Shown here piece after piece: positions 12,901 to 60,246 of a stretch of 64,000 nucleotides of DNA. The notes beneath the pieces are model-generated. The model saw only the letters and a program-made list of their open reading frames with translations. It searched no databases and had not been told where the DNA came from. Origin of the DNA: Canna indica. Taxonomy: Eukaryota; Streptophyta; Magnoliopsida; Zingiberales; Cannaceae. A program made the translations under genes and the position numbers. Every line of letters begins with the position of its first letter. Within the stretch, counting starts at the first letter, position 1. The stretch is taken from positions 57,946,001 through 58,010,000 of the forward strand of contig CP136891.1 of the NCBI GenBank assembly GCA_034359265.1, in the 5' to 3' direction.

Positions 12901-14409
<1,509 letters not shown>

Positions 14410-14492: not shown

Positions 14493-14496
<4 letters not shown>

Positions 14497-14528
<32 letters not shown>
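14497..14528. repeat. (TA)16 microsatellite
   Basis: A second 32-bp uninterrupted TA run, about 90 bp after the first. A shorter TA stretch and a repeated 'ttgataagttcaaa' lie between them. Confidence 0.95.
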
Positions 14529-14529
<1 letters not shown>

Positions 14530-14532
<3 letters not shown>

Positions 14533-17767: not shown

Positions 17768-18185
17768 CACTACTAGAAACGTGTTAATCAACAACGGCCA
17801 TCAGCAACGGCCGCCCACATCGTTGCAATGACTAACGGCATTCTTACGGCCGTTCGAGCCATTACAGATGTGATATATTTGCAACCGTGTCTTTACGATC
17901 GCTCGGGTCGTTGCTAACAAGTGGATGGCGCGAACGCAATGCGCAAAGGAAATAACTTATCAGCAACGGCTTACTAATCACCGCGTCAGTCGTTGCTAAT
18001 GATATTATCACATTAGCAATGACTTACTTACGATTTCTGTACCATTGCTCTTTAGTCGATGGCGCGCTCGCGGCGCGAAAATGAAATACTTATCAGCAAC
18101 GGCGTTACATAGGACGAGCGGCCGTTGCTGATGATATGTATTTATTGGCAACGGCTCTACAACGGATAAGTGAGCCGTTGCTGAT
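17768..18185. repeat. CACTA left terminal and subterminal repeats
   Basis: After the terminal CACTACTAGAAAC there are about ten copies of ATCAGCAACGGC or its complement GCCGTTGCTGAT, some exact and some decayed, in both orientations (for example near 17792, 17804, 17960, 18099, 18120, 18153 and 18173). Adjacent opposite copies can form hairpins. In characterised CACTA elements such motifs bind the TnpA-type protein and bring the ends together; here that is an inference from position and pattern. Confidence 0.85.
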
Positions 18186-19198: not shown

Positions 19199-19217
19199 TT
19201 AGGGTTTTGGCCGATCA

Positions 19218-19275: not shown

Positions 19276-19554
19276 TGTTGGTTAGGGTTTTATTAAACCC
19301 TAATCAAATTTTATTAGAGTTTAATTAAACCCTAATAAAATTTGATTAGGGTTTAATAATCTATGTTAAATGTTTACTGTTTAGATAAATTTTTCATATT
19401 TTAGATTAATTTTTCATATTTTAGGTTAATTTTTCATGTTTAGATTAATGTAGGTTAATGTTTAATGTTTTTTTAATGTTAATTAGATTTAGATTTAGTT
19501 TTAGGTTATATCTATTAATTAATTTTAATGTTAATCTTTATATTTAAATTAATT

Positions 19555-19653
19555 AGAATCGTCCACTTTGGACACGCACTAGAATCGTCCACTTTGGACT
19601 CGCGCTAGAATCGTCCACTTTGGACTCGTGCCGGAATTCTCCACCGTGGACTC
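19555..19653. repeat. 26-bp tandem repeat upstream of TnpD
   Basis: Units start at 19555, 19581, 19607 and 19633. The first three share AGAATCGTCCACTTTGGAC and the fourth is diverged. The core GTCCACTTTGGAC is nearly palindromic (GTCCA/TGGAC). The array lies about 460 bp upstream of the presumed TnpD start, so a regulatory role for the element's own proteins is possible but unproven. Confidence 0.8.
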
Positions 19654-20112
19654 TAACCGACATCGAAATATTTAGAAAATAATCATCCATTCGATGAGTT
19701 GATACGTTTCACGTACGCATCGGCGAGTCGAATATGATTTAGCAAAACCTTGGATCCGTTCGGGGGTTGTATGTTCGTGTAAAAGAAGTCGATGATCTTT
19801 TATACGACGTATAACCCTTGAATTGTTCGTAATTGGGCAATTTGGGAACATATTATTTGTATTTTACTTAGTTTTTTCTTTTAACCGTTAACTCATTCTT
19901 AAATTTTGGCTATTGTATCTCTCTTATTTTCCGATACGCTTCCAAATGATATGCGTATTCGGAGAACTCTAGGGAGATACTGCTGAAATTTAGAATGAAG
20001 TTAACGATTAAAAAAATACTTACTGCAATATGAATAATATGAATCCCGAATGAAATATGATCATCTCACCTAAAGACATTAACTGAAGATATTGTCATTG
20101 ATTGACAAAATC

Positions 20113-23100
20113 ATGTCAGGCGATCGAAGTTGGATGTACCAACGTCTTGATCGTTGAGCTCTAACGAATGAGTTTCGATTAGGCGTAATTTACTTTCTAA
20201 ATTTTGCCAATTCGAATCAGAAATTTGTTAACGTCGGTGATAAAATTCGATATCCGTGCTGCATTTGCTTGAATGCACAATTTTTGGATCGGGAAACTAT
20301 CACTCTACATCTATATAGCAAAGGATTTGCACCAAGATATCTTATATGGACTTGTCATGGGGAATCATGTGAAGTCGGAACGTCGAGTAATCCTGTCGTT
20401 TAGACACATGGTGAATCTTCCTCTGCTGGTGTTTCTTTATCCAGTCCATCTAATCCATATCGAACTATGATACTTGATAGTCTTGGGGGTCAATTCTAGT
20501 TGAATGATAATGTCGATCGGCCAGTTACTGAGACGTCAGTGACACCAGATACTACGGGTGTTGATGTCACATAATTGCCACCAGAAGTACAATCTGCGGT
20601 AGAGATTGAATTACTGAATAAAGAAACCGCAGAATTTTACGAGATGTTGAAAGCTACCGATGAACCTTTGTATGAGAATTGTCCTAAATACACTAGGTTT
20701 TCGGCAATGACGCAACTCCTAAACATCAAGGCCGATTGTAATATCAGCGTGGTTGCGTTTGATCGAAATGCAGGATTGATTAATGGAATGCTGCCTACTG
20801 ATAACAAGTTTGAGCCAACTTTTTATAAGACTAAAAAGTTGATGAGAAAATTAGGGCTTGGGTACGAAAAAATACACGCGTGCCAAAATAACTGCATTTT
20901 ATATTATAAAAAAATACGAAGTTGGATAAATGCCCTGTTTGTGAACATCCTCGTTACAAGGAGAAAAAATCGGTATGAGAGAAAAATATTCTGTTTAAGG
21001 TTCTTCGGCATTTTCCACTAACATCGAGGCTTCAAAGATTATTCATGTCGGAAAAGACGGCCCCCTATATGAGTTGGCATGCAAGAAGTCGTGATGATAC
21101 AATAATGATTCATCCATCTAACAGTGAAGCATGGAAACATTCAGATACATGTTGTCCTTCATTTGCTAGGGATACTAGAAATATCAGATTGGAATTATGC
21201 ACGAATGGTTTTAATCTGTTTGGTCATTCTGCAACTCCTTATTCAGTTTGGCCAGTGATACTAACAGTTTATAATTTGCCGCCGTCAATGTGTATGAAAG
21301 ATGAATTTATTTATCTTTCGATGATTATTCTGGGTCCTAAGGGTCCACAAAAAGAAATTGACATATTTCTCAGACCCCTAATAGATGAATTGGAAATATT
21401 GTGGACTGAAGGAGCTGTCACTTATGATTGTCATCGGAAGCAAAACTTTAATTTGAAGGCCACAGTCTTGTGGACAATCAATAATTTCCCGGCCTACGAC
21501 ATGTTGTCTGGTTGGAGCACTCACGGCCGACTCTCTTGTCTGTATTATATGGAACACTCTAAATCATTCAGTCTTCAGAATGGATGGAAAATCTCATTCT
21601 TTGATTGTCATTGTCGATTCTTACCAGCTAACCATCAGTATCAAATGAATCATAACAAATTTACTAAGGGCAGAGTCGAAAGAGACGAGCCACAACCGAT
21701 GTTGTCTGGTAAACAAATGTTAGCACGTGTTTCAGCACTTCTAGAGATAGTGTTTGATCGGAATGAAAGAGTGTCGGGCTTTGGTCAAACAAATAACTGG
21801 GTAAAAAAAGGTATCTTTTGGGAAATGCCGTATTGAAGTTCATTACTGATTCAACATAATTTGGATGTCATGCACATTGAGAAAAATATGTTTGATAATA
21901 TTTTTAACACTTTGATGGATGTTCCCGAGAAAACTAAAGATAATGTCAAGACCCGACATGATCTGAAAATACTTTGTAAGAGGCCGGAGTTGGAGTTACA
22001 AGAGATCAACGGACGATATTTGAAGCCGAAGGCCCCGTATGTGTTAAATAAACAACAGATGAAAGATGTTTGTCAATGGATCAAAGAATTCAGATTATCC
22101 AATGGATATGCCTCAAACTTATCTCGATGTGTGAACGTCGATGATTGCAAAATATCAGGGATAAAGAGTAATGATTGTCATGTATTCATGAAGAGATTAC
22201 TTCCGATCGCATTCCGAGATCTTCTACCTGATAATATTTGGGGTCCGTTGACTAAATTAAGTATATTTTTTAGAAACATTTGTGCAAATGTCCTTCGAGT
22301 CGAAGATATGTCAGCACTTGAAAGAAATATTATTAAGATTGTATGCAAGCTGAAGCAATTTTTTCCCTCCTGCCTTTTTTGACTCGATGGAGCATCTACC
22401 GATACACTTGGCATATGAGGCACGAGTTGGTGGCCCCATTCAATACCGGTGGATGTACTTATTTGAAAGATACATGAAACGTCTAAAGAAAAAAGTAAAG
22501 AACACGGCAATTGTTGAAGGATCAATATTTGAATCGTATACCATCCAAGAAATTTTAACATTCAGCTCATTTTACTTTGAATCGACAGTGCAGACAAGAT
22601 TTGATCGTCTTCCACGTAACGACGACGGGGGAGTTTGACATTCAGATGGATATTTAAATATATTCTGTCACTCTGGTCGTGCTTTTGGTTCTCATTCGTC
22701 TCGACACTTAAGCGACGAAAAGTATCATTTGACAGAATTATACGTATTACTCAATTGTCCAGAGATTGAACAATTCATTGAAATATTTGACATTGAGATG
22801 GTGCAAAAATACTCTATTCACAACGATCAAGAATTGGAGAGATTACGGAATCGTGATTTCCCTACTTGGATTCGGGCTTGCAGCAAAGATCACATAGCTA
22901 AAATAGTTGAAAAAATATTTGAGTTTGTTAGTGGACCATCGCGACTAGTGTCATGTTTTAACGGATATTTTGTTAATGGATATAAATTTCACATGGTTGA
23001 ATATGCATTTACAAAGAAGACGATGAATGCCGGGGTTTGCGTGAAAGGGACAACATATGTTGAATGTGATATGAATTTTTATGGACTGTTGGAAGAAGTG

Positions 23101-23616
23101 CTAGAATTGCACTACTTTGGCTTGAAATCAATTATCCTATTTAAATGTCATTGGTTCAATACAACAGATAGGGGCATGAAAGTTCATCCAAAATACAAAC
23201 TTATTGAGGTTAATTACAAATCGAAATTGACAGCAAATGAGCCTTTTATATTGGCATCACAAGCCGAACAAGTATATTATGCGAAGTATCCGACTCGAAT
23301 TAAAGATAGAGAAGATTGGTGTATAGTTTGTAAGACTAAAGCTCGAGGACGAATTGATTCGATAACGGGAGAAAATGAGCCGACACCTGATGTGACAAAT
23401 GATTTTTATCAAGAAGAGGATTCTCCCGTAGTAGACTGTATTATTCCAATACTCGAGGATGCGGACACAGCGTTAGTTCAATTAGAAGTTGAATATGTTG
23501 TTGATGATGATCATGAAGTTGAGGAAGGTGGAGATAAAGAAGTAGAATTTGAAGAAGATGAAGAAGATGATGAAGAAGAAGAATTGGAAGACTATTACTC
23601 AGATGATGATGAATAA
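20113..23616 (+). pseudogene. CACTA TnpD/TNP2-like transposase, copy 1 (only full-length one)
   Basis: The reading starts at ATG 20113 (MSGDRSWMYQRLD) with a transposase-associated domain that keeps IRYPCCIC and LHLYSKGF and ends at WTCHGE (about 20370). Next are the N-terminal TNP2 part (20575-21021: AEFYEMLKATDEPLY, LGLGYEKIHACQNNC) and the Transposase_21 core (21045-21836: YSVWPVILTVYNLPP, WTINNFPAYDMLSGW). Then come LDVMHIEKNMFDN (21861) and a DUF4218-like part (22387: MEHLPIHLAYEARVGGP). The DUF4216-like part and acidic tail are at 22729-23616. Disabling changes are in-frame stops at 20155-20157, near 20402, 20499 and 20572, frameshifts near 20900-21030, TGA at 21834 where TGG is expected after PY, a +1 frameshift in a T/C run near 22370, and TGA at 22636. 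The family acts in the nucleus as the element's transposase; this copy cannot. Confidence 0.9.
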
Positions 23617-23688
23617 TTGTAAATTATATCTTCTATTAAATTTATCTCTACTATATATATATTCTAATTATATTCTTATTCGACAGCT

Positions 23689-25072
23689 ATGGTGGGTCGA
23701 GGTTATCATCGGACTAGAGCTACAGAGTCTTCGATCGGTCAGACTCCCGATTTAGCCGCACTTGCTCCTATCGCTGATCCTCCTGCCGCCGAGCCTAGTT
23801 CATCGAGGCACAAGCAGCCATGCGAGCCGAACAGGATTCAGCCTCCGCTAGCCGCGAAACAACGCCGACTTATTTTTGTGATTGGCGAGCGATAATGTAA
23901 TATGAATTATGAATTATATATAATTCATTATATCGTAATATAATATTGTATTTTATTTTTGTTGTGCAGGTTCGAGCAGGAGGATGTCCCCAGGACTATA
24001 TCGGGGACAATCCGACGATATATTCATGGGGCCTGGCCCACTTGGTCTTACGCCCGTAAGCACGTGGACATGCTCTAGTGTAGGTTTGAGGTACGTATTT
24101 AAAATTTTTATATACATGTATTTAAAAAAATTTAATCAGCTTGATTATTATTGGTACTGATATTATTATTTTGCAGGCTCACTATACTTGGCCAAAGGAG
24201 CAGAGGCTATTTATTTACAATGCATGGGAGGCCATTTCCCGGCAGAGGTACAACTGCCAGTTGAGGCAGGCTCGGGCACAGGCGATGGCCCGAGCTTGGG
24301 CTACAAACATATATAGTAGATACTTGGGCATACGGCCTCGATTGGATTACTCCAGATATTTGGGATCAGCTCGTGTCGATATGGTCGATCGAGCGGTGGC
24401 AGAAGGTATCTAGGACTGCGGCTAGAAACTGCATGTCGGCGGGAGGAGCGCGTCACACTAGCGACTCTGTTTCATTTGTCATGCATGCGAGACACATGAT
24501 AAATATTATACCTTATTTTGAATTATATATTTTATTTGTTACTATATGTACTAATTAATGTATTTATTTTGTAAATGTAGACGATGGTGATAGATGATGG
24601 GACTATCCAGCGACCCTCCTCGATGGAGGCATTTGAGCGGACTCACCATAGAGGACATGGGGCGGGGGAGTACATCGACTCCCGCGCTGTAGTCATCATG
24701 GTAAGTATATTTGTTTCAATTATGCATTATTTATTTATAATTTAAGTTTTAGAAAAAATATGAAACAAAAACTAAACTCGTGTAGGAGACCTACACTCAG
24801 ACGGTGATGCAGCGCGGGGGCACCCCCGAGGACTCTGACGCGGGAGCGTGGGTCGAGGCTGCAGGTGGCTGGGACCACAGCCGCGTCTATGGCTTTGCTG
24901 ATAGTGGCCATGCGCGAGCACCGACCCCTCCGACAGTCGGTGAGCGACCCTCCACCTCCAGGATTAATGATCAAAACAGGAGGATATCGACACTAGAGGA
25001 GACGATCGCATGACAGAGTGAGATGATGGCTCATCAGAGTTAGATGATGGCTGAGATGCATGATATGCTGAG
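23689..25072 (+). pseudogene. CACTA TnpA-like gene (Transposase_24 type), copy 1
   Basis: The start ATG is at 23689 (MVGRGYHRTRATESS), 72 bp after the TnpD stop. A Pro/Ala-rich N-terminus leads to an exon ending near 23890. Exon 2 begins after TTGTGCAG at 23969 (FEQEDVPRTISG) and ends before GTACGT at 24092. Exon 3 starts after TTTTGCAG at 24177 (AHYTWPKEQR) and contains, after a frameshift, WITPDIWDQLVSIW, NCMSAGGARHTSDSVSF and MHARHM, the pattern of plant En/Spm Transposase_24 proteins. A later exon at 24580-24701 ends at GTAAGT and another starts at 24786 (ETYTQTVMQRGG). Stops occur in exon 2 (CTC TAG) and near the end (TGA 25012, TAG about 25042). Such proteins bind subterminal repeats. 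The first intron donor seems lost: AT where GT is expected. Confidence 0.8.
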
Positions 25073-25075
25073 TCC

Positions 25076-26956
25076 CACTTCTAGAGATAGTGTTTGATCG
25101 GAATGAAAGAGTGTCGGGCTTTGGTCAAACAAATAACTGGGTAAAAAAAGGTATCTTTTGGGAAATGCCGTATTGAAGTTCATTACTGATTCAACATAAT
25201 TTGGATGTCATGCACATTGAGAAAAATATGTTTGATAATATTTTTAACACTTTGATGGATGTTCCCGAGAAAACTAAAGATAATGTTAAGACCCGACATG
25301 ATCTGAAAATACTTTGTAAGAGGCCGGAGTTGGAGTTACAAGAGATCAACGGACGATATTTGAAGCCGAAGGCCCCGTATGTGTTAAATAAACAACAGAT
25401 GAAAGATGTTTGTCAATGGATCAAAGAATTCAGATTATCCAATGGATATGCCTCAAACTTATCTCGATGTGTGAACGTCGATGATTGCAAAATATCAGGG
25501 ATAAAGAGTAATGATTGTCATGTATTCATGAAGAGATTACTTCCGATCGCATTCCGAGATCTTCTACCTGATAATATTTGGGGTTCGTTGACTAAATTAA
25601 GTATATTTTTTAGAAACATTTGTGCAAATGTCCTTCGAGTCGAAGATATGTCAGCACTTGAAAGTAATATTATTAAGATTGTATGCAAGCTGAAGCAATT
25701 TTTTCCCTCCTGCCTTTTTTGACTCGATGGAGCATCTACCGATACACTTGGCATATGAGGCACGAGTTGGTGGCCCCATTCAATACCGGTGGATGTACTT
25801 ATTTGAAAGATACATGAAACGTCTAAAGAAAAAAGTAAAGAACACGGCAATTGTTGAAGGATCAATATTTGAATCGTATACCATCCAAGAAATTTTAACA
25901 TTCAGCTCATTTTACTTTGAATCGACAGTGCAGACAAGATTTGATCGTCTTCCACGTAACGACGACGGGGGAGTTTGACATTCAGATGGATATTTAAATA
26001 TATTCTGTCACTCTGGTCGTGCTTTTGGTTCTCATTCGTCTCGACACTTAAGCGACGAAAAGTATCATTTGACAGAATTATACGTATTACTCAATTGTCC
26101 AGAGATTGAACAATTCATTGAAATATTTGACATTGAGATGGTGCAAAAATACTCTATTCACAACGATCAAGAATTGGAGAGATTACGGAATCGTGATTTC
26201 CCTACTTGGATTCGGGCTTGCAGCAAAGATCACATAGCTAAAATAGTTGAAAAAATATTTGAGTTTGTTAGTGGACCATCGCGACTAGTGTCATGTTTTA
26301 ACGGATATTTTGTTAATGGATATAAATTTCACATGGTTGAATATGCATTTACAAAGAAGACGATGAATGCCGGGGTTTGCGTGAAAGGGACAACATATGT
26401 TGAATGTGATATGAATTTTTATGGACTGTTGGAAGAAGTGCTAGAATTGCACTACTTTGGCTTGAAATCAATTATCCTATTTAAATGTCATTGGTTCAAT
26501 ACAACAGATAGGGGCATGAAAGTTCATCCAAAATACAAACTTATTGAGGTTAATTACAAATCGAAATTGACAGCAAATGAGCCTTTTATATTGGCATCAC
26601 AAGCCGAACAAGTATATTATGCGAAGTATCCGACTCGAATTAAAGATAGAGAAGATTGGTGTATAGTTTGTAAGACTAAAGCTCGAGGACGAATTGATTC
26701 GATAACGGGAGAAAATGAGCCGACACCTGATGTGACAAATGATTTTTATCAAGAAGAGGATTCTCCCGTAGTAGACTGTATTATTCCAATACTCGAGGAT
26801 GCGGACACAGCGTTAGTTCAATTAGAAGTTGAATATGTTGTTGATGATGATCATGAAGTTGAGGAAGGTGGAGATAAAGAAGTAGAATTTGAAGAAGATG
26901 AAGAAGATGATGAAGAAGAAGAATTGGAAGACTATTACTCAGATGATGATGAATAA
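25076..26956 (+). pseudogene. TnpD 3' half, array copy 2
   Basis: Begins at the junction inside the Transposase_21 core and lacks everything upstream, so it has no start codon of its own family. It shares with copy 1 the TGA after PY (25174), the +1 frameshift near 25710 and the TGA at 25976. The longest open part, 26069-26956, encodes the DUF4216-like region and acidic tail. A private T is found at about 25287 (GTT for GTC, silent). Confidence 0.9.
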
Positions 26957-27028
26957 TTGTAAATTATATCTTCTATTAAATCTATCTCTACTATATATAT
27001 ATTCTAATTATATTCTTATTCGACAGCT

Positions 27029-28412
27029 ATGGTGGGTCGAGGTTATCATCGGACTAGAGCTACAGAGTCTTCGATCGGTCAGACTCCCGATTTAGCCGCA
27101 CTTGCTCCTATCGCTGATCCTCCTGCCGCCGAGCCTAGTTCATCGAGGCACAAGCAGCCATGCGAGCCGAACAGGATTCAGCCTCCACTAGCCGCGAAAC
27201 AACGCCGACTTATTTTTGTGATTGGCGAGCGATAATGTAATATGAATTATGAATTATATATAATTCATTATATCGTAATATAATATTGTATTTTATTTTT
27301 GTTGTGCAGGTTCGAGCAGGAGGATGTCCCCAGGACTATATCGGGGACAATCCGACGATATATTCATGGGGCCTGGCCCACTTGGTCTTACGCCCGTAAG
27401 CACGTGGACATGCTCTAGTGTAGGTTTGAGGTACGTATTTAAAATTTTTATATACATGTATTTAAAAAAATTTAATCAGCTTGATTATTATTGGTACTGA
27501 TATTATTATTTTGCAGGCTCACTATACTTGGCCAAAGGAGCAGAGGCTATTTATTTACAATGCATGGGAGGCCATTTCCCGGCAGAGGTACAACTGCCAG
27601 TTGGGGCAGGCTCGGGCACAGGCGATGGCCCGAGCTGGGGCTACAAACATATATAGTAGATACTTGGGCATACGGCCTCGATTGGATTACTCCAGATATT
27701 TGGGATCAGCTCGTGTCGATATGGTCGATCGAGCGGTGGCAGAAGGTATCTAGGACTGCGGCTAGAAACTGTATGTCGGCGGGAGGAGCGCGTCACACTA
27801 GCGACTCTGTTTCATTTGTCATGCATGCGAGACACATGATAAATATTATACCTTATTTTGAATTATATATTTTATTTGTTACTATATGTACTAATTAATG
27901 TATTTATTTTGTAAATGTAGACGATGGTGATAGATGATGGGACTATCCAGCGACCCTCCTCGATGGAGGCATTTGAGCGGACTCACCATAGAGGACATGG
28001 GGCGGGGGAGTACATCGACTCCCGCGCTGTAGTCATCATGGTAAGTATATTTGTTTCAATTATGCATTATTTATTTATAATTTAAGTTTTAGAAAAAATA
28101 TGAAACAAAAACTAAACTCGTGTAGGAGACCTACACTCAGACGGTGATGCAGCGCGGGGGCACCCCCGAGGACTCTGACGCGGGAGCGTGGGTCGAGGCT
28201 GCAGGTGGCTGGGACCACAGCCGCGTCTATGGCTTTGCTGATAGTGGCCATGCGCGAGCACCGACCCCTCCGACAGTCGGTGAGCGACCCTCCACCTCCA
28301 GGATTAATGATCAAAACAGGAGGATATCGACACTAGAGGAGACGATCGCATGACAGAGTGAGATGATGGCTCATCAGAGTTAGATGATGGCTGAGATGCA
28401 TGATATGCTGAG
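27029..28412 (+). pseudogene. TnpA-like gene, array copy 2
   Basis: Same exon layout and same stops and frameshift as copy 1. It differs from copy 1 at a few bases, for example G for A in the QLGQAR codon (27601-27610). It ends at the junction, where the C-terminal residues present only in copy 5 are replaced by the start of the next unit. Confidence 0.8.
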
Positions 28413-28415
28413 TCC

Positions 28416-30296
28416 CACTTCTAGAGATAGTGTTTGATCGGAATGAAAGAGTGTCGGGCTTTGGTCAAACAAATAACTGGGTAAAAAAAGGTATCTTTTG
28501 GGAAATGCCGTATTGAAGTTCATTACTGATTCAACATAATTTGGATGTCATGCACATTGAGAAAAATATGTTTGATAATATTTTTAACACTTTGATGGAT
28601 GTTCCCGAGAAAACTAAAGATAATGTCAAGACCCGACATGATCTGAAAATACTTTGTAAGAGGCCGGAGTTGGAGTTACAAGAGATCAACGGACGATATT
28701 TGAAGCCGAAGGCCCCGTATGTGTTAAATAAACAACAGATGAAAGATGTTTGTCAATGGATCAAAGAATTCAGATTATCCAATGGATATGCCTCAAACTT
28801 ATCTCGATGTGTGAACGTCGATGATTGCAAAATATCAGGGATAAAGAGTAATGATTGTCATGTATTCATGAAGAGATTACTTCCGATCGCATTCCGGGAT
28901 CTTCTACCTGATAATATTTGGGGTTCGTTGACTAAATTAAGTATATTTTTTAGAAACATTTGTGCAAATGTCCTTCGAGTCAAAGATATGTCAGCACTTG
29001 AAAGTAATATTATTAAGATTGTATGCAAGCTGAAGCAATTTTTTCCCTCCTGCCTTTTTTGACTCGATGGAGCATCTACCGATACACTTGGCATATGAGG
29101 CACGAGTTGGTGGCCCCATTCAATACCGGTGGATGTACTTATTTGAAAGATACATGAAACGTCTAAAGAAAAAAGTAAAGAACACGACAATTGTTGAAGG
29201 ATCAATATTTGAATCGTATACCATCCAAGAAATTTTAACATTCAGCTCATTTTACTTTGAATCGACAGTGCAGACAAGATTTGATCGTCTTCCACGTAAC
29301 GACGACGGGGGAGTTTGACATTCAGATGGATATTTAGATATATTCTGTCACTCTGGTCGTGCTTTTGGTTCTCATTCGTCTCGACACTTAAGCGACGAAA
29401 AGTATCATTTGACAGAATTATACGTATTACTCAATTGTCCAGAGATTGAACAATTCATTGAAATATTTGACATTGAGATGGTGCAAAAATACTCTATTCA
29501 CAACGATCAAGAATTGGAGAGATTACGGAATCGTGATTTCCCTACTTGGATTCGGGCTTGCAGCAAAGATCACATAGCTAAAATAGTTGAAAAAATATTT
29601 GAGTTTGTTAGTGGACCATCGCGACTAGTGTCATGTTTTAACGGATATTTTGTTAATGGATATAAATTTCACATGGTTGAATATGCATTTACAAAGAAGA
29701 CGATGAATGCCGGGGTTTGCGTGAAAGGGACAACATATGTTGAATGTGATATGAATTTTTATGGACTGTTGGAAGAAGTGCTAGAATTGCACTACTTTGG
29801 CTTGAAATCAATTATCCTATTTAAATGTCATTGGTTCAATACAACAGATAGGGGCATGAAAGTTCATCCAAAATACAAACTTATTGAGGTTAATTACAAA
29901 TCGAAATTGACAGCAAATGAGCCTTTTATATTGGCATCACAAGCCGAACAAGTATATTATGCGAAGTATCCGACTCGAATTAAAGATAGAGAAGATTGGT
30001 GTATAGTTTGTAAGACTAAAGCTCGAGGACGAATTGATTCGATAACGGGAGAAAATGAGCCGACACCTGATGTGACAAATGATTTTTATCAAGAAGAGGA
30101 TTCTCCCGTAGTAGACTGTATTATTCCAATACTCGAGGATGCGGACACAGCGTTAGTTCAATTAGAAGTTGAATATGTTGTTGATGATGATCATGAAGTT
30201 GAGGAAGGTGGAGATAAAGAAGTAGAATTTGAAGAAGATGAAGAAGATGATGAAGAAGAAGAATTGGAAGACTATTACTCAGATGATGATGAATAA
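28416..30296 (+). pseudogene. TnpD 3' half, array copy 3
   Basis: Same truncated start and same disabling changes as copy 2. It shares with copy 4 the variants ACGACAATT (about 29185) and TTTAGATA (about 29335), and has a private change giving Lys for Glu in VKDMSAL (28981). Confidence 0.9.
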
Positions 30297-30368
30297 TTGT
30301 AAATTATATCTTCTATTAAATCTATCTCTACTATATATATATTCTAATTATATTCTTATTCGACAGCT

Positions 30369-31752
30369 ATGGTGGGTCGAGGTTATCATCGGACTAGAGC
30401 TACAGAGTCTTCGATCGGTCAGACTCCCGATTTAGCCGCACTTGCTCCTATCGCTGATCCTCCTGCCGCCGAGCCTAGTTCATCGAGGCACAAGCAGCCA
30501 TGCGAGCCGAACAGGATTCAGCCTCCGCTAGCCGCGAAACAACGCCGACTTATTTTTGTGATTGGCCAGCGATAATGTAATATGAATTATGAATTATATA
30601 TAATTCATTATATCGTAATATAATATTGTATTTTATTTTTGTTGTGCAGGTTCGAGCAGGAGGATGTCCCCAGGACTATATCGGGGACAATCCGACGATA
30701 TATTCATGGGGCCTGGCCCACTTGGTCTTACGCCCGTAAGCACGTGGACATGCTCTAGTGTAGGTTTGAGGTACGTATTTAAAATTTTTATATACATGTA
30801 TTTAAAAAAATTTAATCAGCTTGATTATTATTGGTACTGATATTATTATTTTGCAGGCTCACTATACTTGGCCAAAGGAGCAGAGGCTATTTATTTACAA
30901 TGCATGGGAGGCCATTTCCCGGCAGAGGTACAACTGCCAGTTGGGGCAGGCTCGGGCACAGGCGATGGCCCGAGCTGGGGCTACAAACATATATAGTAGA
31001 TACTTGGGCATACGGCCTCGATTGGATTACTCCAGATATTTGGGATCAGCTCGTGTCGATATGGTCGATCGAGCGGTGGCAGAAGGTATCTAGGACTGCG
31101 GCTAGAAACTGTATGTCGGCGGGAGGAGCGCGTCACACTAGCGACTCTGTTTCATTTGTCATGCATGCGAGACACATGATAAATATTATACCTTATTTTG
31201 AATTATATATTTTATTTGTTACTATATGTACTAATTAATGTATTTATTTTGTAAATGTAGACGATGGTGATAGATGATGGGACTATCCAGCGACCCTCCT
31301 CGATGGAGGCATTTGAGCGAACTCACCATAGAGGACATGGGGCGGGGGAGTACATCGACTCCCGCGCTGTAGTCATCATGGTAAGTATATTTGTTTCAAT
31401 TATGCATTATTTATTTATAATTTAAGTTTTAGAAAAAATATGAAACAAAAACTAAACTCGTGTAGGAGACCTACACTCAGACGGTGATGCAGCGCGGGGG
31501 CACCCCCGAGGACTCTGACGCGGGAGCGTGGGTCGAGGCTGCAGGTGGCTGGGACCACAGCCGCGTCTATGGCTTTGCTGATAGTGGCCATGCGCGATCA
31601 CCGACCCCTCCGACAGTCGGTGAGCGACCCTCCACCTCCAGGATTAATGATCAAAACAGGAGGATATCGACACTAGAGGAGACGATCGCATGACAGAGTG
31701 AGATGATGGCTCATCAGAGTTAGATGATGGCTGAGATGCATGATATGCTGAG
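30369..31752 (+). pseudogene. TnpA-like gene, array copy 3
   Basis: Same structure as copies 1 and 2. It shares GCGATCACC at 31598 (Ser for Ala) and GCGAACTC (about 31320) with copy 4 only, but GGCCAGCG (about 30565) with copy 5 and not with copy 4, a mosaic pattern. Confidence 0.8.
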
Positions 31753-31755
31753 TCC

Positions 31756-33636
31756 CACTTCTAGAGATAGTGTTTGATCGGAATGAAAGAGTGTCGGGCT
31801 TTGGTCAAACAAATAACTGGGTAAAAAAAGGTATCTTTTGGGAAATGCCGTATTGAAGTTCATTACTGATTCAACATAATTTGGATGTCATGCACATTGA
31901 GAAAAATATGTTTGATAATATTTTTAACACTTTGATGGATGTTCCCGAGAAAACTAAAGATAATGTCAAGACCCGACATGATCTGAAAATACTTTGTAAG
32001 AGGCCGGAGTTGGAGTTACAAGAGATCAACGGACGATATTTGAAGCCGAAGGCCCCGTATGTGTTAAATAAACAACAGATGAAAGATGTTTGTCAATGGA
32101 TCAAAGAATTCAGATTATCCAATGGATATGCCTCAAACTTATCTCGATGTGTGAACGTCGATGATTGCAAAATATCAGGGATAAAGAGTAATGATTGTCA
32201 TGTATTCATGAAGAGATTACTTCCGATCGCATTCCGGGATCTTCTACCTGATAATATTTGGGGTTCGTTGACTAAATTAAGTATATTTTTTAGAAACATT
32301 TGTGCAAATGTCCTTCGAGTCGAAGATATGTCAGCACTTGAAAGTAATATTATTAAGATTGTATGCAAGCTGAAGCAATTTTTTCCCTCCTGCCTTTTTT
32401 GACTCGATGGAGCATCTACCGATACACTTGGCATATGAGGCACGAGTTGGTGGCCCCATTCAATACCGGTGGATGTACTTATTTGAAAGATACATGAAAC
32501 GTCTAAAGAAAAAAGTAAAGAACACGACAATTGTTGAAGGATCAATATTTGAATCGTATACCATCCAAGAAATTTTAACATTCAGCTCATTTTACTTTGA
32601 ATCGACAGTGCAGACAAGATTTGATCGTCTTCCACGTAACGACGACGGGGGAGTTTGACATTCAGATGGATATTTAGATATATTCTGTCACTCTGGTCGT
32701 GCTTTTGGTTCTCATTCGTCTCGACACTTAAGCGACGAAAAGTATCATTTGACAGAATTATACGTATTACTCAATTGTCCAGAGATTGAACAATTCATTG
32801 AAATATTTGACATTGAGATGGTGCAAAAATACTCTATTCACAACGATCAAGAATTGGAGAGATTACGGAATCGTGATTTCCCTACTTGGATTCGGGCTTG
32901 CAGCAAAGATCACATAGCTAAAATAGTTGAAAAAATATTTGAGTTTGTTAGTGGACCATCGCGACTAGTGTCATGTTTTAACGGATATTTTGTTAATGGA
33001 TATAAATTTCACATGGTTGAATATGCATTTACAAAGAAGACGATGAATGCCGGGGTTTGCGTGAAAGGGACAACATATGTTGAATGTGATATGAATTTTT
33101 ATGGACTGTTGGAAGAAGTGCTAGAATTGCACTACTTTGGCTTGAAATCAATTATCCTATTTAAATGTCATTGGTTCAATACAACAGATAGGGGCATGAA
33201 AGTTCATCCAAAATACAAACTTATTGAGGTTAATTACAAATCGAAATTGACAGCAAATGAGCCTTTTATATTGGCATCACAAGCCGAACAAGTATATTAT
33301 GCGAAGTATCCGACTCGAATTAAAGATAGAGAAGATTGGTGTATAGTTTGTAAGACTAAAGCTCGAGGACGAATTGATTCGATAACGGGAGAAAATGAGC
33401 CGACACCTGATGTGACAAATGATTTTTATCAAGAAGAGGATTCTCCCGTAGTAGACTGTATTATTCCAATACTCGAGGATGCGGACACAGCGTTAGTTCA
33501 ATTAGAAGTTGAATATGTTGTTGATGATGATCATGAAGTTGAGGAAGGTGGAGATAAAGAAGTAGAATTTGAAGAAGATGAAGAAGATGATGAAGAAGAA
33601 GAATTGGAAGACTATTACTCAGATGATGATGAATAA
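31756..33636 (+). pseudogene. TnpD 3' half, array copy 4
   Basis: Same truncated start and disabling changes. The closest relative is copy 3: ACGACAATT and TTTAGATA are shared only by these two. No private variant was noticed in this part. Confidence 0.9.
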
Positions 33637-33708
33637 TTGTAAATTATATCTTCTATTAAATCTATCTCTACTATATATATATTCTAATTATATTCTTATT
33701 CGACAGCT

Positions 33709-35092
33709 ATGGTGGGTCGAGGTTATCATCGGACTAGAGCTACAGAGTCTTCGATCGGTCAGACTCCCGATTTAGCCGCACTTGCTCCTATCGCTGATCC
33801 TCCTGCCGCCGAGCCTAGTTCATCGAGGCACAAGCAGCCATGCGAGCCGAACAGGATTCAGCCTCCGCTAGCCGCGAAACAACGCCGACTTATTTTTGTG
33901 ATTGGCGAGCGATAATGTAATATGAATTATGAATTATATATAATTCATTATATCGTAATATAATATTGTATTTTATTTTTGTTGTGCAGGTTCGAGCAGG
34001 AGGATGTCCCCAGGACTATATCGGGGACAATCCGACGATATATTCATGGGGCCTGGCCCACTTGGTCTTACGCCCGTAAGCACGTGGACATGCTCTAGTG
34101 TAGGTTTGAGGTACGTATTTAAAATTTTTATATACATGTATTTAAAAAAATTTAATCAGCTTGATTATTATTGGTACTGATATTATTATTTTGCAGGCTC
34201 ACTATACTTGGCCAAAGGAGCAGAGGCTATTTATTTACAATGCATGGGAGGCCATTTCCCGGCAGAGGTACAACTGCCAGTTGGGGCAGGCTCGGGCACA
34301 GGCGATGGCCCGAGCTGGGGCTACAAACATATATAGTAGATACTTGGGCATACGGCCTCGATTGGATTACTCCAGATATTTGGGATCAGCTCGTGTCGAT
34401 ATGGTCGATCGAGCGGTGGCAGAAGGTATCTAGGACTGCGGCTAGAAACTGTATGTCGGCGGGAGGAGCGCGTCACACTAGCGACTCTGTTTCATTTGTC
34501 ATGCATGCGAGACACATGATAAATATTATACCTTATTTTGAATTATATATTTTATTTGTTACTATATGTACTAATTAATGTATTTATTTTGTAAATGTAG
34601 ACGATGGTGATAGATGATGGGACTATCCAGCGACCCTCCTCGATGGAGGCATTTGAGCGAACTCACCATAGAGGACATGGGGCGGGGGAGTACATCGACT
34701 CCCGCGCTGTAGTCATCATGGTAAGTATATTTGTTTCAATTATGCATTATTTATTTATAATTTAAGTTTTAGAAAAAATATGAAACAAAAACTAAACTCG
34801 TGTAGGAGACCTACACTCAGACGGTGATGCAGCGCGGGGGCACCCCCGAGGACTCTGACGCGGGAGCGTGGGTCGAGGCTGCAGGTGGCTGGGACCACAG
34901 CCGCGTCTATGGCTTTGCTGATAGTGGCCATGCGCGATCACCGACCCCTCCGACAGTCGGTGAGCGACCCTCCACCTCCAGGATTAATGATCAAAACAGG
35001 AGGATATCGACACTAGAGGAGACGATCGCATGACAGAGTGAGATGATGGCTCATCAGAGTTAGATGATGGCTGAGATGCATGATATGCTGAG
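33709..35092 (+). pseudogene. TnpA-like gene, array copy 4
   Basis: Same structure and stops. It has the copy 3/4 variant GCGATCACC (34938) and GCGAACTC (about 34660), but GGCGAGCG at the first exon end, like copies 1 and 2. Confidence 0.8.
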
Positions 35093-35095
35093 TCC

Positions 35096-36976
35096 CACTT
35101 CTAGAGATAGTGTTTGATCGGAATGAAAGAGTGTCGGGCTTTGGTCAAACAAATAACTGGGTAAAAAAAGGTATCTTTTGGGAAATGCCGTATTGAAGTT
35201 CATTACTGATTCAACATAATTTGGATGTCATGCACATTGAGAAAAATATGTTTGATAATATTTTTAACACTTTGATGGATGTTCCCGAGAAAACTAAAGA
35301 TAATGTCAAGACCCGACATGATCTGAAAATACTTTGTAAGAGGCCGGAGTTGGAGTTACAAGAGATCAACGGACGATATTTGAAGCCGAAGGCCCCGTAT
35401 GTGTTAAATAAACAACAGATGAAAGATGTTTGTCAATGGATCAAAGAATTCAGATTATCCAATGGATATGCCTCAAACTTATCTCGATGTGTGAACGTCG
35501 ATGATTGCAAAATATCAGGGATAAAGAGTAATGATTGTCATGTATTCATGAAGAGATTACTTCCGATCGCATTCCGGGATCTTCTACCTGATAATATTTG
35601 GGGTTCGTTGACTAAATTAAGTATATTTTTTAGAAACATTTGTGCAAATGTCCTTCGAGTCGAAGATATGTCAGCACTTGAAAGTAATATTATTAAGATT
35701 GTATGCAAGCTGAAGCAATTTTTTCCCTCCTGCCTTTTTTGACTCGATGGAGCATCTACCGATACACTTGGCATATGAGGCACGAGTTGGTGGCCCCATT
35801 CAATACCGGTGGATGTACTTATTTGAAAGATACATGAAACGTCTAACGAAAAAAGTAAAGAACACGGCAATTGTTGAAGGATCAATATTTGAATCGTATA
35901 CCATCCAAGAAATTTTAACATTCAGCTCATTTTACTTTGAATCGACAGTGCAGACAAGATTTGATCGTCTTCCACGTAACGACGACGGGGGAGTTTGACA
36001 TTCAGATGGATATTTAAATATATTCTGTCACTCTGGTCGTGCTTTTGGTTCTCATTCGTCTCGACACTTAAGCGACGAAAAGTATCATTTGACAGAATTA
36101 TACGTATTACTCAATTGTCCAGAGATTGAATAATTCATTGAAATATTTGACATTGAGATGGTGCAAAAATACTCTATTCACAACGATCAAGAATTGGAGA
36201 GATTACGGAATCGTGATTTCCCTACTTGGATTCGGGCTTGCAGCAAAGATCACATAGCTAAAATAGTTGAAAAAATATTTGAGTTTGTTAGTGGACCATC
36301 GCGACTAGTGTCATGTTTTAACGGATATTTTGTTAATGGATATAAATTTCACATGGTTGAATATGCATTTACAAAGAAGACGATGAATGCCGGGGTTTGC
36401 GTGAAAGGGACAACATATGTTGAATGTGATATGAATTTTTATGGACTGTTGGAAGAAGTGCTAGAATTGCACTACTTTGGCTTGAAATCAATTATCCTAT
36501 TTAAATGTCATTGGTTCAATACAACAGATAGGGGCATGAAAGTTCATCCAAAATACAAACTTATTGAGGTTAATTACAAATCGAAATTGACAGCAAATGA
36601 GCCTTTTATATTGGCATCACAAGCCGAACAAGTATATTATGCGAAGTATCCGACTCGAATTAAAGATAGAGAAGATTGGTGTATAGTTTGTAAGACTAAA
36701 GCTCGAGGACGAATTGATTCGATAACGGGAGAAAATGAGCCGACACCTGATGTGACAAATGATTTTTATCAAGAAGAGGATTCTCCCGTAGTAGACTGTA
36801 TTATTCCAATACTCGAGGATGCGGACACAGCGTTAGTTCAATTAGAAGTTGAATATGTTGTTGATGATGATCATGAAGTTGAGGAAGGTGGAGATAAAGA
36901 AGTAGAATTTGAAGAAGATGAAGAAGATGATGAAGAAGAAGAATTGGAAGACTATTACTCAGATGATGATGAATAA
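35096..36976 (+). pseudogene. TnpD 3' half, array copy 5, with extra stop
   Basis: Same truncated start and shared disabling changes, plus a private CAA to TAA stop at 36131-36133 and AAG to ACG near 35847 (Thr for Lys). The open part downstream starts at Met 36158. As the last copy it has the largest number of private variants. Confidence 0.9.
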
Positions 36977-37048
36977 TTGTAAATTATATCTTCTATTAAA
37001 TCTATCTCTACTATATATATATTCTAATTATATTCTTATTCGACAGCT

Positions 37049-38556
37049 ATGGTGGGTCGAGGTTATCATCGGACTAGAGCTACAGAGTCTTCGATCGGTC
37101 AGACTCCCGATTTAGCCGCACTTGCTCCTATCGCTGATCCTCCTACCGCCGAGCCTAGTTCATCGAGGCACAAGCAGCCATGCGAGCCGAACAGGATTCA
37201 GCCTCCGCTAGCCGCGAAACAACGCCGACTTATTTTTGTGATTGGCCAGCGATAATGTAATATGAATTATGAATTATATATAATTCATTATATCGTAATA
37301 TAATATTGTATTTTATTTTTGTTGTGCAGGTTCGAGCAGGAGGATGTCCCCAGGACTATATCAGGGACAATCCGACGATATATTCATGGGGCCTGGCCCA
37401 CTTGGTCTTACGCCCGTAAGCACGTGGACATGCTCTAGTGTAGGTTTGAGGTACGTATTTAAAATTTTTATATACATGTATTTAAAAAAATTTAATCAGC
37501 TTGATTATTATTGGTACTGATATTATTATTTTGCAGGCTCACTATACTTGGCCAAAGGAGCAGAGGCTATTTATTTACAATGCATGGGAGGCCATTTCCC
37601 GGCAGAGGTACAACTGCCAGTTGGGGCAGGCTCGGGCACAGGCGATGGCCCGAGCTGGGGCTACAAACATATATAGTAGATACTTGAGCATACGGCCTCG
37701 ATTGGATTACTCCAGATATTTGGGATCAGCTCGTGTCGATATGGTCGATCGAGCGGTGGCAGAAGGTATCTAGGACTGCGGCTAGAAACTGCATGTCGGC
37801 GGGAGGAGCGCGTCACACTAGCGACTCTGTTTCATTTGTCATGCATGCGAGACACATGATAAATATTATACCTTATTTTGAATTATATATTTTATTTGTT
37901 ACTATATGTACTAATTAATGTATTTATTTTGTAAATGTAGACGATGGTGATAGATGATGGGACTATCCAGCGACCCTCCTCGATGGAGGCATTTGAGCGG
38001 ACTCACCATAGAGGACATGGGGCGGGGGAGTACATCGACTCCCGCGTTGTAGTCATCATGGTAAGTATATTTGTTTCAATTATGCATTATTTATTTATAA
38101 TTTAAGTTTTAGAAAAAATATGAAACAAAAACTAAACTCGTGTAGGAGACCTACACTCGGACGGTGATGCAGCGCGGGGGCACCCCCGAGGACTCTGACG
38201 CGGGAGCGTGGGTCGAGGCTGCAGGTGGCTGGGACCACAGCCGCGTCTATGGCTTTGCTGATAGTGGCCATGCGCGAGCACCGACCCCTCCGACAGTCGG
38301 TGAGCGACCCTCCACCTCCAGGATTAATGATCAGAACAGGAGGATATCAACACTAGAGGAGACGATCGCATGACAGAGTGAGATGATGGCTCATCAGAGT
38401 TAGATGATGGCTGAGATGCATGATATGCTGAGACAGATGACAGGTCAGTCCAGCGGTGTACACTCAGATCTATCGTCATCGACTCAATCCACGCTAGTGT
38501 ACACTCAAGTACTCCAGAGCCCATCATATGATCCCGACCTTCCTCCACCATCGTAG
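37049..38556 (+). pseudogene. TnpA-like gene, array copy 5, with the true 3' end
   Basis: The only copy that continues past the unit edge. After MHDMLR it reads on in the same frame through QMTGQSSGVHSDLSSS and ends PDLPPPS with TAG at 38554-38556. It carries the two internal stops shared by all copies (TGA near 38371, TAG near 38401). Private changes include ACTCGGACG (38158), CGTTGTAG (38046) and TTGAGCATA (37686), mostly C/G to T/A transitions. Confidence 0.85.
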
Positions 38557-38883: not shown

Positions 38884-39323
38884 GGTTAACATCATCAGCA
38901 ACGGCCTTTCCATGGTCATCCATATAAAAGTCGTTGTTGAAAGTGTATCGTAATACTTGGGCCGCAAACTTAAAGTCGTTGCTGATGAACAATGACAACA
39001 GCTTAGCAAAAGCTTAGCAACAACCTTTCAACAAAGGCTTTGCAACGGCTTGTGGGCCGTTGCTGATGGCAATATCTGCAACAGTCGACAAGCCATTGAG
39101 GAATCATTGCTGATAAAAGTAGCAGCAACAACAGCCCCTCGTTGTGGAACCGTTGCCGATAACGTATCAACAACAGATATCGTCTGTTGCGGAACCGTTG
39201 TAGATCCGTGGTTAAGTTATCAGGTATGCCATCGTCTGCAACGGGTGCAGCCGTTGCTGATGGTCTTCAACAATGGCATGGCAACGGATCCAGTCGTTGG
39301 TGATGCTTGTTATTCCAGTAGTG
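38884..39323. repeat. CACTA right subterminal and terminal repeats
   Basis: GCAACGGC/GCCGTTGC motifs recur in both orientations (for example near 38899, 38930, 38977, 39040, 39056, 39245, 39285), several followed by TGATG as on the left side. The block ends GTTATTCCAGTAGTG, the inverted counterpart of the left end. Confidence 0.85.
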
Positions 39324-39951
39324 ATAGGTTCGAGTTTCGGTTCAGGTTTTGGATTTTAGGTTTGGTTTCCTTCATCATCATCATGCATTTCAAGGAATAT
39401 ACAAATAATTTAGACCCAAAAAACTAGACTATATCTTCTTCGTCTTCCGAGCATCGATCAACGTCCTTTAAGATTTTTTGATTTATCATCAATCTTCTGA
39501 TCGCGAATGTCGCGTGCTACTCAACTTGTTATCATCAAAACCAAGTTTAAGATCAAAACTTAAAAACCTTTGGCCAATAAGTCCTTTCTCATATAGGCTC
39601 TCTCATCATGCCTAGGACTAGATCATATTCTCAAATCAACACACACCTTAGTCAATGACATATGAGGCTTAGTCTAATAGTAGATCCATATTAACTTGGG
39701 CAATTATATCTTATATCGGCTCCCTCACTAGTCGAGGACTACATCAATAGCTATTATCATTCGTCAATTTTATAGATAACAATGCATCATCAAGTCTTAT
39801 TAACCAACATAACATATAATATATTTTCGATATGGAACTAAACTAAGTTACTATGTCATTATCGTTAATAAGATTATTTTGATCATTTTTCTTTTTATTC
39901 TTTATGTATTCATTTTGTTAATTAAATAAAGTAATAATTATTTCTAGTCTA
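39324..39951 (+). promoter_or_regulatory. Distal upstream region of TBCA, separated by a LINE
   Basis: Matches 1-675 of the window from 39348 onward. It adjoins the CACTA right end directly. In the uninterrupted duplicate this DNA runs straight into the proximal promoter and leader, so it was the original upstream region of TBCA before the LINE inserted. No gene is present in it. Confidence 0.75.
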
Positions 39952-42900
39952 TATCTTTTTTTTTGAAAGAAAATGAAGCCCATAGGCCACCCGATGCATT
40001 TCATACGATTTAAAATGTATAGCAACTAGGTGAAAGAGATCCCTCCCCCATAGCCAGTGGCCAAGAAGGGGTCACGAATCAAACCAAAAAAAATCCAAAA
40101 GACAAATTCATTCCCAGACCAAAACTCGGGACTAAGATGGTCTCCGAGTCCCATCGTCATTTAAGCGACTCCAAAAAGTCCATCTCAGTCGCACAATGAT
40201 CAAAGCGTCCACATGAACATTGTTAAATATCGCGGTATTCCTGGTTGACCACACACTCCAACACTAAAGCATAGCAAGGGAAGCACAATCCACATTCCAC
40301 TCTTCTTCCTCCTTATCATTTACTGGGATCGGGTTGAAAGCAGGCTTATCCACCTTTCGAAGAAATTCGCTCCAACCCGCAGAGATAACCAGACATTCAC
40401 CAAAAAGGTGAGAGGAGGTTTCATGCAATACCTTACAAAAGATGCATTTGGGGTCGAGGTCCACACATCCATGCTTGATGAGCCGATCCTTAGTTTGGAG
40501 CCTTCTCTTTACCACAAGACATAATATTATTTTCATTTTTAGCGGGCATTTACACTTCCAAACTTTTGCTGCCATAAGGTCACGGACTCCTCTCTCCACC
40601 ATAATTTTATACATTGAGGAGGTGGAGAAAATATTAGATGAGTTCCAACGCCAATGATGGAAGTCCTCGGAAGAACCCAATTCTTGAGAGTTTAAAAGAT
40701 CCCTCAAGCAAGCCACCTCTTGGAGGTTTACCTCTCCCCTCCATGAGAAGTGTCATACATTGGCATTAGGAGAGGTGAAATCCTCAATCATTCCCTTCTT
40801 GTTTCGGCACAAGGAGTATAAGTGAGGGAAATTGTCCGCTAGTTGAGAGTTTCGAATCCATCGATAAAGCCAGAACCGCGTAGAGTTCCCCCTTCCCACA
40901 ATAGACTCCATACCCATGGCAAATAGATGTTTGGACTCATATATACCTTTCCAGACAGCAGACCAGCGAGACGTGTTATGATTTGCTTGCCACCTTGCCC
41001 GACGAAAGTAAAGGTTTGAGATGATATGGGTCCATAGCAAATTTTCCCCCGAAGCCAAACCCCACCACCATCTTCCAAGGCGAGCCACGTTATGCTTTTC
41101 CAAATCTAAAATTCCCAACCCCCCATTGTGCCTAGGGGAGGTCACATCATCCCAACACACCAGGGCCTTGCACACTTCTTCACTGCCTCCATTCCATAGG
41201 AAATTTCTTCTTCGTCGGTCAATTTGGTTTAAGACCCATTTTGGAGCTTTGAAAATGCTAAAGTGATCGTTGAGGCCGCTAAGAATACTATTAATCAGAG
41301 TTAATCTTCCTCACCTGGAAAGAGCTCTCCCTTTCCAAGCAACTAATTTCCTATCTATTTGCTCGATTACCTCATTCCAGTCCTCCCTTTTAAGACGGCC
41401 ATCACGCAGCGGTAAGCCAAGATATCTCAAAGGGAAAGCTTTAGCTTGGCAACCTAAGAATCCCGCCGCTTTGGAAGCCTTCGAGAAATCATTCTGCAGG
41501 TGCACTACCACCGTCTTGCTAAGATTAACCCTCAGTCCGCTCATGAGATGAAAAGCTCGCAGAAGTAGATGAATGTTTCCAAGGTCCTCGTTACTCCCCT
41601 TGGTAAAGAGAAGGAAATCATTTGCAAATTCGAGGTTCGTAACCTCCCTTCCCCCACCCAAGTCTATACCCGAAATCGTCCCTTCACTGTTTTCCCTTCT
41701 CATAACTCTTGCAAAGATATCCACCATAAGCAGGAAAAGGTAAGGAGACAGGGGGTGCCCTTGGCACAACCCCTTCTTGTATCTAAACCAGTTACCTGGA
41801 CTGCCATTCAGCATGACTGTCGATTCTCCCGATCGAAGCAAGTTTCCAATCCAATTTATCCAAAGGGCAGGAAATCCCCTTTTTCGAAGGATATCCAATA
41901 GAAAATCCCAAGAAATAGAATCAAAAGCTTTAGCCATGTCTGTACCTTGTCTTTTGCAGTGGTGTATAATATCATTTGCCGCCAGATACGAATCATGGGT
42001 GGATCACCCAGGCACGAACGCACACTGGGTGTCACCAACTATCCCGGACATCAATGGCTTTATTTTGAGAGCTAGAATTTTTGAAAGGATTCGAACAACA
42101 CCAGACGAGAGGCTAATTGGCCTGAAGCTGTCAATATCTTCCACCCCTTCAAATTTCAGGATAAGCAAAATGAAGGCTTTGTTGATTGTAGACTAGTCCA
42201 CATTTCCGAAAAGAAGATGCTCCAAGAGAGCCAGGAAGGGCTGACCGATAACATTCCATGCATGAATAAAGAACTCAGCTGTGAGGCCATCCGGCCTTGG
42301 GGCTTTATCCTTACCCAGCGCCTTAATGGCCTTGAGAACCTCCTCCTCTGATAGATGATTGCAGAGCGAGGATAAATCTGGTGGGTGCTCCGAGAAGAGA
42401 ACCCCCCCCCAGTCCAGATGGATCAGAGGTGAGTGGCCAATCCCCAGGGATTCACGGAAGAAGTCTCTGTGAAGATTCGCCATCTAATCGTGAGATTCAG
42501 CTACCCACTCCCCAAGTCTTAAAACTGAAATCCAGTTCTTCTGCTTTCTAGCCCAAGCGACTCTATGGAAGAATTTAGTGTTTCAATTGCCATCTTTCAG
42601 CCATCTTGCCTTGGCACGCTGGCGCCAAAACACATGTTCAGCTTGATAGCAGTCATCGATGTGTTTCCCGATGGCCTAAATTTCCAAACTATCCCATTGA
42701 TTCGCGCTACCGAGTTCCACATCTGAGAGAAGTTCCTCCAGTCTACCCTCAAGGCCCATGATATTACCCCTCGAGGATTCCTTATGCTTTTTGCTCCATT
42801 CTTTAATGGTTGATATGAGATTTCTCATCTTTCGGATCCATCTGCTTAGCGGTGCCATCTCCTGCGCGTGCTCCTCCCTCAACCAACAATCATTTACCAA

Positions 42901-44207: not shown

Positions 44208-44427
44208 GACCTAATGTTATTCCATCAAACAAACGGAGCTGGTGTTTTGGATCCGTTTGTAGGACCACATCAGCTGGAAGCCTGGAACCAACAAGCGTCT
44301 CTCTAGTCTCTATTCTCTGTAAATATTCCGCCGCTGGTCCCCTCTCTTCCTCGATTCGTCGTCGCCTGCAGTGTCCCCGGTTATCGTCCCCTGCGGTGTT
44401 CGCACGCTGCTCCCCTCCCTCCACGAT
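44208..44427 (+). promoter_or_regulatory. TBCA: TBCA proximal promoter and 5' leader exon
   Basis: The pyrimidine-rich segment ('ctctctagtctctattctctg', 'cttcctcgattcgtcgtcgcc') matches 676-883. It ends at a good donor, GATGTAAGCT (GT at 44428). An acceptor, TTTCTTTCTTGAAG, ends at 45617, 7 bp before the start codon. I infer a non-coding first exon and a leader intron of about 1.19 kb (44428-45617). The transcription start is not identifiable with certainty. The minus-strand ORF 44478-43771 crosses from this leader into the LINE and is a chance reading. Confidence 0.6.
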
Positions 44428-59885: not shown

Positions 59886-60246
59886 TATGTGTTCAGCAAA
59901 AGGTCCTTCGTTGATAGGAAGGGCAGTCCCAGCCTTCCTGACTTTTGGAGGTAATGAAATTGAAACTTAGGTTGCATGAGGTGTAGATAGTAGGGTTGTG
60001 ATGGCGTATCCCTCGTGATAAAGAAGGACATGGATGTCCATGTATGACTGGGTGGAGCCATTTGGTCTAGCTCGAATCTAGTTCATGAGCGCGGCTAGGT
60101 GGAGCCCCCAGGCGGGCCCTGTTTGGTTCGGCTTGAGGAAAATTATGGGGTGATGCTGGGTTTGGTCCAACTGGGCCCAATAGTTCTAGTCAAGTCCACT
60201 TTCTTATTAGACTCAACCCTTAGTTTGACTCAATACGAGTTTAGAT
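59886..60246. other. No gene recognised
   Basis: A transition between the reversed gypsy remnant and a Copia fragment. GC content is moderate. The ORF at 60099-60329 starts here but has no family features in its first part. Confidence 0.5.

Follow-up and report, generated by a model that had tools for sequence, protein, structure and literature searches.

Within a 64,000-nucleotide stretch of Canna indica DNA (the window), a 3,340-bp unit is repeated five times head to tail at 21736–38432, and this array sits inside a single CACTA (En/Spm) element at 17768–39323. The explanation that we favour, with a probability of about 0.62, is that the array is a nascent tandem repeat in a dead transposon, created by one end-joining or template-switch duplication and then enlarged by unequal exchange or gene conversion. 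The array looks like satellite DNA caught early; the general kind is known, and the length of the unit within one element is unusual. The route from transposon to satellite has mostly been reconstructed from large, old arrays that no longer preserve the first steps. Here, five units that can be told apart are found together with the founding junction and the parent element, including both element ends, so that the first duplication can be separated from later growth. The results support the proposal, made in an original prediction from the sequence, that the array represents an early step towards satellite DNA.

A repeat finder and base-by-base comparison agree on the array. The copies start at 21736, 25076, 28416, 31756, and 35096, with a spacing of exactly 3,340 bp, which confirms the five copies with a period exact to the base that had been predicted; the number five is the count in the assembly. 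All copies lie on the + strand. Copy 1 (21736–25075) ends in a TCC insert at 25073–25075, and copies 2 (25076–28415), 3 (28416–31755), and 4 (31756–35095) similarly end in TCC. Copy 5 (35096–38432) is 3,337 bp long, carries no TCC, and continues into native sequence. The left native flank of the array reads TTTCAG/CACTTC and the right native flank CTGAG/ACAGATG (the slash marks the breakpoint). Sequence sharing extends to 38432, the predicted array end, and native ACAGATG follows directly after copy 5. All four internal junctions read CTGAG-TCC-CACTTC, with the same 3-nt insert each time. Comparison of the flank and junction sequences therefore resolves the unit into two parts, 3,337 bp from the element and the 3-nt insert. 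Because the same TCC occurs at four junctions, the founding duplication was probably a single event that was copied later. A templated origin of TCC was considered, and AGTCC was found 15–19 bases beyond the right breakpoint, which is too short to be informative. The array junction sequence gave no match in IMG/VR. Like satellite DNA, the array consists of direct head-to-tail repeats at an exact period, and in the window it comprises only five units.

The host element lies on the + strand and spans 21,556 bp as assembled, or 8,196 bp with one unit only. Its terminal inverted repeats start with CACTA and are degenerate, with 10 of 12 positions identical between CACTACTAGAAA on the left and CACTACTGGAAT on the right. 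The left terminus, starting at 17768, and the left subterminal repeats occupy 17768–18181 (+ strand); the right subterminal repeats and the right terminus, ending at 39323, occupy 38898–39323 (− strand). The subterminal motifs GCAACGG/CCGTTGC are clustered at 17804–18181 and 38898–39287, where 13 of the 17 sites in the window are located, so that both ends show the subterminal repeats of a CACTA element. The flanking triplets are ACA on the left and ATA on the right; this target site duplication is imperfect (two of three bases agree), and one later mutation would explain it. Alternative left ends at 19216, 19577, and 21016 were dropped in favour of 17768, where the terminal repeat and subterminal motifs occur together. 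Collectively, the termini and the subterminal clusters at both ends bear out the prediction that the amplification is internal to one CACTA element. The 5′ part of the element additionally contains a near-perfect palindrome at 19290–19359, with two 35-nt arms, no spacer, and 97% complementarity, in which AAACCCTAA/TTAGGGTTT motifs occur. A 26-bp repeat, TAGAATCGTCCACTTTGGACTCGCGC, is present in 3.8 copies at 19554–19653, between the left element end and the tnpD-like gene.

The genes of the element also correspond to those of CACTA transposons. The Transposase_21 (tnp2) domain of the tnpD-like gene lies at approximately 21096–21734 on the + strand (PF02992, E 3.6e-72, residues 18–230 of the open reading frame (ORF) 21045–21836). 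This domain is single copy and outside the repeated unit, stopping just short of the unit start at 21736. Inside the unit, an ORF at 22729–23616 (+ strand, copy 1) holds DUF4216 and represents the C-terminal part of the tnpD-like gene (PF13952, E 1.4e-23). The DUF4218 match (PF13960) remains below its curated cut-off (16.8 bits vs 27). The tnpA-like (Transposase_24-like) gene region at 23690–25072 (+ strand; limits judged by eye) is mostly inside the unit, with its end past 38432. Transposase_24 (PF03004) was matched on the ORF 27491–27898 of copy 2 with 25.2 bits, below the curated cut-off of 28.7. Thus, two domains of the CACTA gene set, PF02992 and PF13952, were found above cut-off, and two, PF13960 and PF03004, below it.

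To assess decay, 182 relatives (62 listed matches and the best 120 of 418) were aligned to 19900–23800, and all 182 gave a match. The nearest relatives are distant and come from various plants, the best identity being 45% among the 62 listed and 56% among the best 120 of 418. Three lesions on the + strand lie inside the unit and are identical in all five copies. A TGA lies at 21834–21836 in the tnpD-like frame, and 33 of the 36 alignments spanning it have W at this position. Another TGA in this frame, at 22636–22638, faces a residue in 14 of 15 alignments, the exception having a gap. Between them, in the DUF4218 part at 22340–22400, the alignments of the relatives P0093 and P0132 shift frame near 22379. 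A further stop in the tnpD-like gene, at 20976, is located outside the array. The stops at 20155, 20497, 20572, and 20907 mostly oppose gaps, and that at 22351 lies in the frame overlap; none of these was used as evidence. Near the unit end, the tnpA-like frame meets stops at 38371 and 38401 in the listed frames, where introns could intervene.

The two stops and the frameshift are identical in all five units, so that all five copies of the tnpD-like module are dead. Most simply, the unit acquired these lesions before it was amplified; their spread to all copies by later conversion is possible, though less simple. The original prediction had described the unit as a coding module. It does carry the 3′ part of the tnpD-like gene and most of the tnpA-like gene, but all five copies of it are pseudogenes. 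With the stops at 20976, 21834, and 22636 and the frameshift near 22379, the element has no working transposase and is a dead CACTA member rather than a non-member. As none of the copies has an intact tnpD-like gene, transposase dosage was rejected as the driver of the amplification. Similarly, an in-frame tnpA–tnpD fusion at the junction was considered and rejected: the MAEMHDML frame continues AGT CCC ACT TCT AGA GAT AGT GTT and then meets a stop, so that no long fusion results.

The five copies were compared over 3,337 aligned positions, the last three (junction) positions being excluded. They differ at 24 variable sites and show no insertions or deletions (indels). Pairwise differences range from 2 (copies 3 and 4) to 16 (copies 1 and 5), with 7–16 for all pairs other than 3–4, and copies 3 and 4 also share the longest run of identity between any two units, 1,584 bp. 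From copy 1 to copy 5, private variants number 5, 2, 1, 0, and 9; the outer two copies carry 14 of these 17 (P 0.00045 under equal rates), and those of copy 5 are biased to its outer side (P 0.04). Moreover, the mean difference grows with unit separation, from 8.5 through 11.7 and 12.5 to 16. The units are thus homogenised in the manner of satellite DNA, with the inner units most similar and the outer ones most diverged. Furthermore, seven sites are common to two copies (on the minority side), compared with a maximum of 2 in 20,000 simulated star histories, and the four-gamete test fails for six pairs of sites. Transitions make up 19 of the 24 variants; 12 of the 19 fall in a CG or CHG context, where 36% would be expected (one-sided P 0.013); methylated plant repeats are expected to show such an excess. 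With substitution rates of 7e-9 and 1.3e-8 per site per year, rough ages from the closest to the farthest pair are ~43,000–342,000 and ~23,000–184,000 years, respectively.

In the favoured scenario, the tnpD-like gene of the CACTA element would have decayed first, before amplification. A 3,337-bp segment that begins just past the Transposase_21 domain and reaches almost to the tnpA-like gene end would then have been duplicated once in tandem. The first join was formed without shared bases and holds the 3-nt TCC insert; it probably arose when a break was repaired by end joining or a template switch. The resulting pair would have grown to five partly homogenised units by unequal sister-chromatid exchange and/or gene conversion, growth and homogenisation both being made possible by the long, near-perfect homology between units. 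Homogenisation may have included out-of-register repair, as the variant pattern suggests, and stepwise exchange or conversion would replace the inner units and retain the outer ones. The array most likely has no function of its own. Several points weigh against this scenario. The star simulation took the rate to be the same at every site. Of the six four-gamete failures, five depend on site 2152 and the sixth on the transition sites 482 and 2697, and recurrent mutation could be behind part of them. The physical order of the copies ranks only within the best 5% of all orders. Additionally, no relative that would polarise the variants and give their ancestral states was found at the DNA level. 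Finally, the variant pattern comes from one assembled allele.

Alternatively, a single burst, by rolling-circle copying of an excised or repair-formed circle or by replication-based re-copying, might have made all five units, followed by mutation only. The one identical junction at all four joins and the low divergence agree with such a burst and are equally compatible with stepwise growth. Evidence against the burst comes from the seven variants common to two copies, well above the simulated maximum for star histories, and from the closeness of copies 3 and 4 relative to all other pairs. With the gradient of private variants and the trend with distance added, a single burst without later exchange does not fit, and we regard it as unlikely. 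Of the mechanisms named in the original prediction, unequal exchange thus stands as the growth route, whereas rolling-circle or single-burst amplification with nothing but mutation afterwards does not; a burst that conversion later reshaped is possible, as is a circle at an earlier stage. It is very unlikely that the array is an assembly artefact in which fewer real units were multiplied or joined from haplotypes. The count is that of the assembly, and given the two differences and the 1,584-bp identity between copies 3 and 4, the real count might be 4 or 6; the exact count of five is unproven. However, no two copies share the same set of variants, which are mostly transitions and include no indels, and 1,584 bp is within reach of accurate long reads. 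In particular, joined haplotypes would give close pairs at a constant separation of at least two units; no such pairs were found, and differences instead increase with distance, so haplotype concatenation is not supported.

The left breakpoint hints at a different trigger for the first duplication. The break lies exactly 5′ of CACTTCTAGAGA (21736–21747, + strand), which matches the left terminal repeat at 10 of 12 positions. In the single-copy element, such 10/12 look-alikes occur on the + strand only at 21736 and 18986 and not at all on the − strand, and we estimate the chance of coincidence at ~1 in 1,000 (from two sites in 8,196 bp, with two breakpoints and two strands). A CACTA transposase supplied in trans from elsewhere might have cut this cryptic terminal repeat, and the one-ended cut might have joined the sister chromatid during repair, through abortive gap repair or alternative transposition; the first tandem copy made in this way would have seeded a duplication, enlarged by exchange, that is now becoming a satellite. 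Tandem duplications caused by transposition are known in maize (PMC4270019; PMC3744419), and filler DNA is frequent after the excision of plant transposons, as reported in rice (PMC4423477). Against this trigger, the look-alike was recognised post hoc and on one side only; at the right breakpoint, by-eye comparison revealed no terminal repeat. Furthermore, no cluster of subterminal motifs lies beside 21736, and the element's own transposase gene is broken. Transposase cutting is attractive but unproven, and we consider it quite unlikely. If it were true, CACTA-derived satellites would have their seeds in terminal-repeat look-alikes within CACTA genes, and if look-alike breakpoints recur, transposase cutting would be tied to satellite birth.

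Several other repeats were observed in the window. The sequence to the right of the CACTA end (39348–44703) belongs to a repeat family that also occurs at the window start (1–1158), and the insertion site of the CACTA element may have been within or next to a dispersed repeat. A LINE-like insertion on the minus strand at 39952–44208 (RVT_1, E 2.9e-18 at 41311–41937) splits this repeat, whose uninterrupted relative at 1–1158 is 88–93% identical. Additionally, a perfect (TA)55 run is found at 14297–14406, another AT run of 19.5 copies at 14493–14530, and an 87-bp unit in two perfect copies at 47905–48082, a very recent short tandem duplication. An inverted pair of ~590 bp at 59364–59949 and 63416–64000, 73% identical, reaches the window end.

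The original prediction had considered the array unusual. This view holds for the unit: we found no published case of a multi-kilobase transposase-gene unit repeated in one CACTA element with both ends, in a search whose coverage leaves out most subscription journals. It needs qualifying for the phenomenon, as satellites born from CACTA or En/Spm elements have been published (PMC7320549; PMC10794571). The CficCl-61-40 satellite of Chenopodium is described as deriving from the tnp2 region of the CACTA element Jozin, with a monomer of ~40 bp (PMC7320549; PMC7591062), and a review of transposon-derived repeats gives Jozin as its CACTA example (PMC9659126). The Canna array is likewise a tandem repeat from CACTA transposase sequence, and the reported length of full Jozin, ~8.3 kb (PMC7320549), is close to the 8,196 bp of our element with a single unit. 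Unlike CficCl-61-40, whose ~40-bp monomers lie inside a tnp2 fragment and form large genome-wide arrays, the Canna array consists of five 3,337-bp units in an element with both ends, and the unit starts after the Transposase_21 domain. In C. quinoa, a 16.5-kb CACTA element holds 32.5 copies of a 171-bp repeat, which the authors interpret as captured (PMC8978399). Both elements contain a tandem array between nearly complete ends and are much lengthened; however, the 171-bp array lies outside coding sequence, whereas the array in Canna is made of the element's own gene sequence. Similarly, Ensat1 and Ensat2 of Arabidopsis are satellites from En/Spm sequence, derived from much shorter segments of Atenspm2 (499 and ~151 bp), and the two sources disagree on whether these are terminal or internal (PMC10794571; PMC7320549). 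For a 20.5-kb soybean CACTA element, the part of the report that we consulted describes no internal tandem units (PMC2613891).

Long-unit tandem repeats that are locally homogenised have also been reported from retrotransposons, namely, St3-294 of potato with a unit of >5.4 kb (PMC10794571) and CRM1TR and CRM4TR of maize, the latter of ~1.37 kb, gene conversion or unequal exchange having been proposed for the CRM repeats (PMC3648361). These resemble the Canna array in their origin from transposable elements; unlike it, they stem from LTR retrotransposons and form large, mature arrays. Tandem structures of LTR retrotransposons are reported to be common in plants (PMC11899658). Lathyrus satellites are said to have arisen from short tandem repeats within Ogre elements (PMC7004042), another case in which a tandem repeat in an element seeds a satellite, although those repeats are short and located in a retrotransposon 3′ untranslated region, unlike the Canna unit.

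Regarding mechanism, template switching and gap filling have been described around animal DNA transposons (PMC8277862). The maize Ac/Ds system, for which alternative transposition, re-replication, and tandem direct duplications have been reported (PMC4270019; PMC3744419), likewise indicates that transposase action can yield a tandem duplication. Ac and Ds, which are hAT-type elements, differ from the Canna case in that the termini of two elements are involved, whereas here at most one cryptic end would have taken part.

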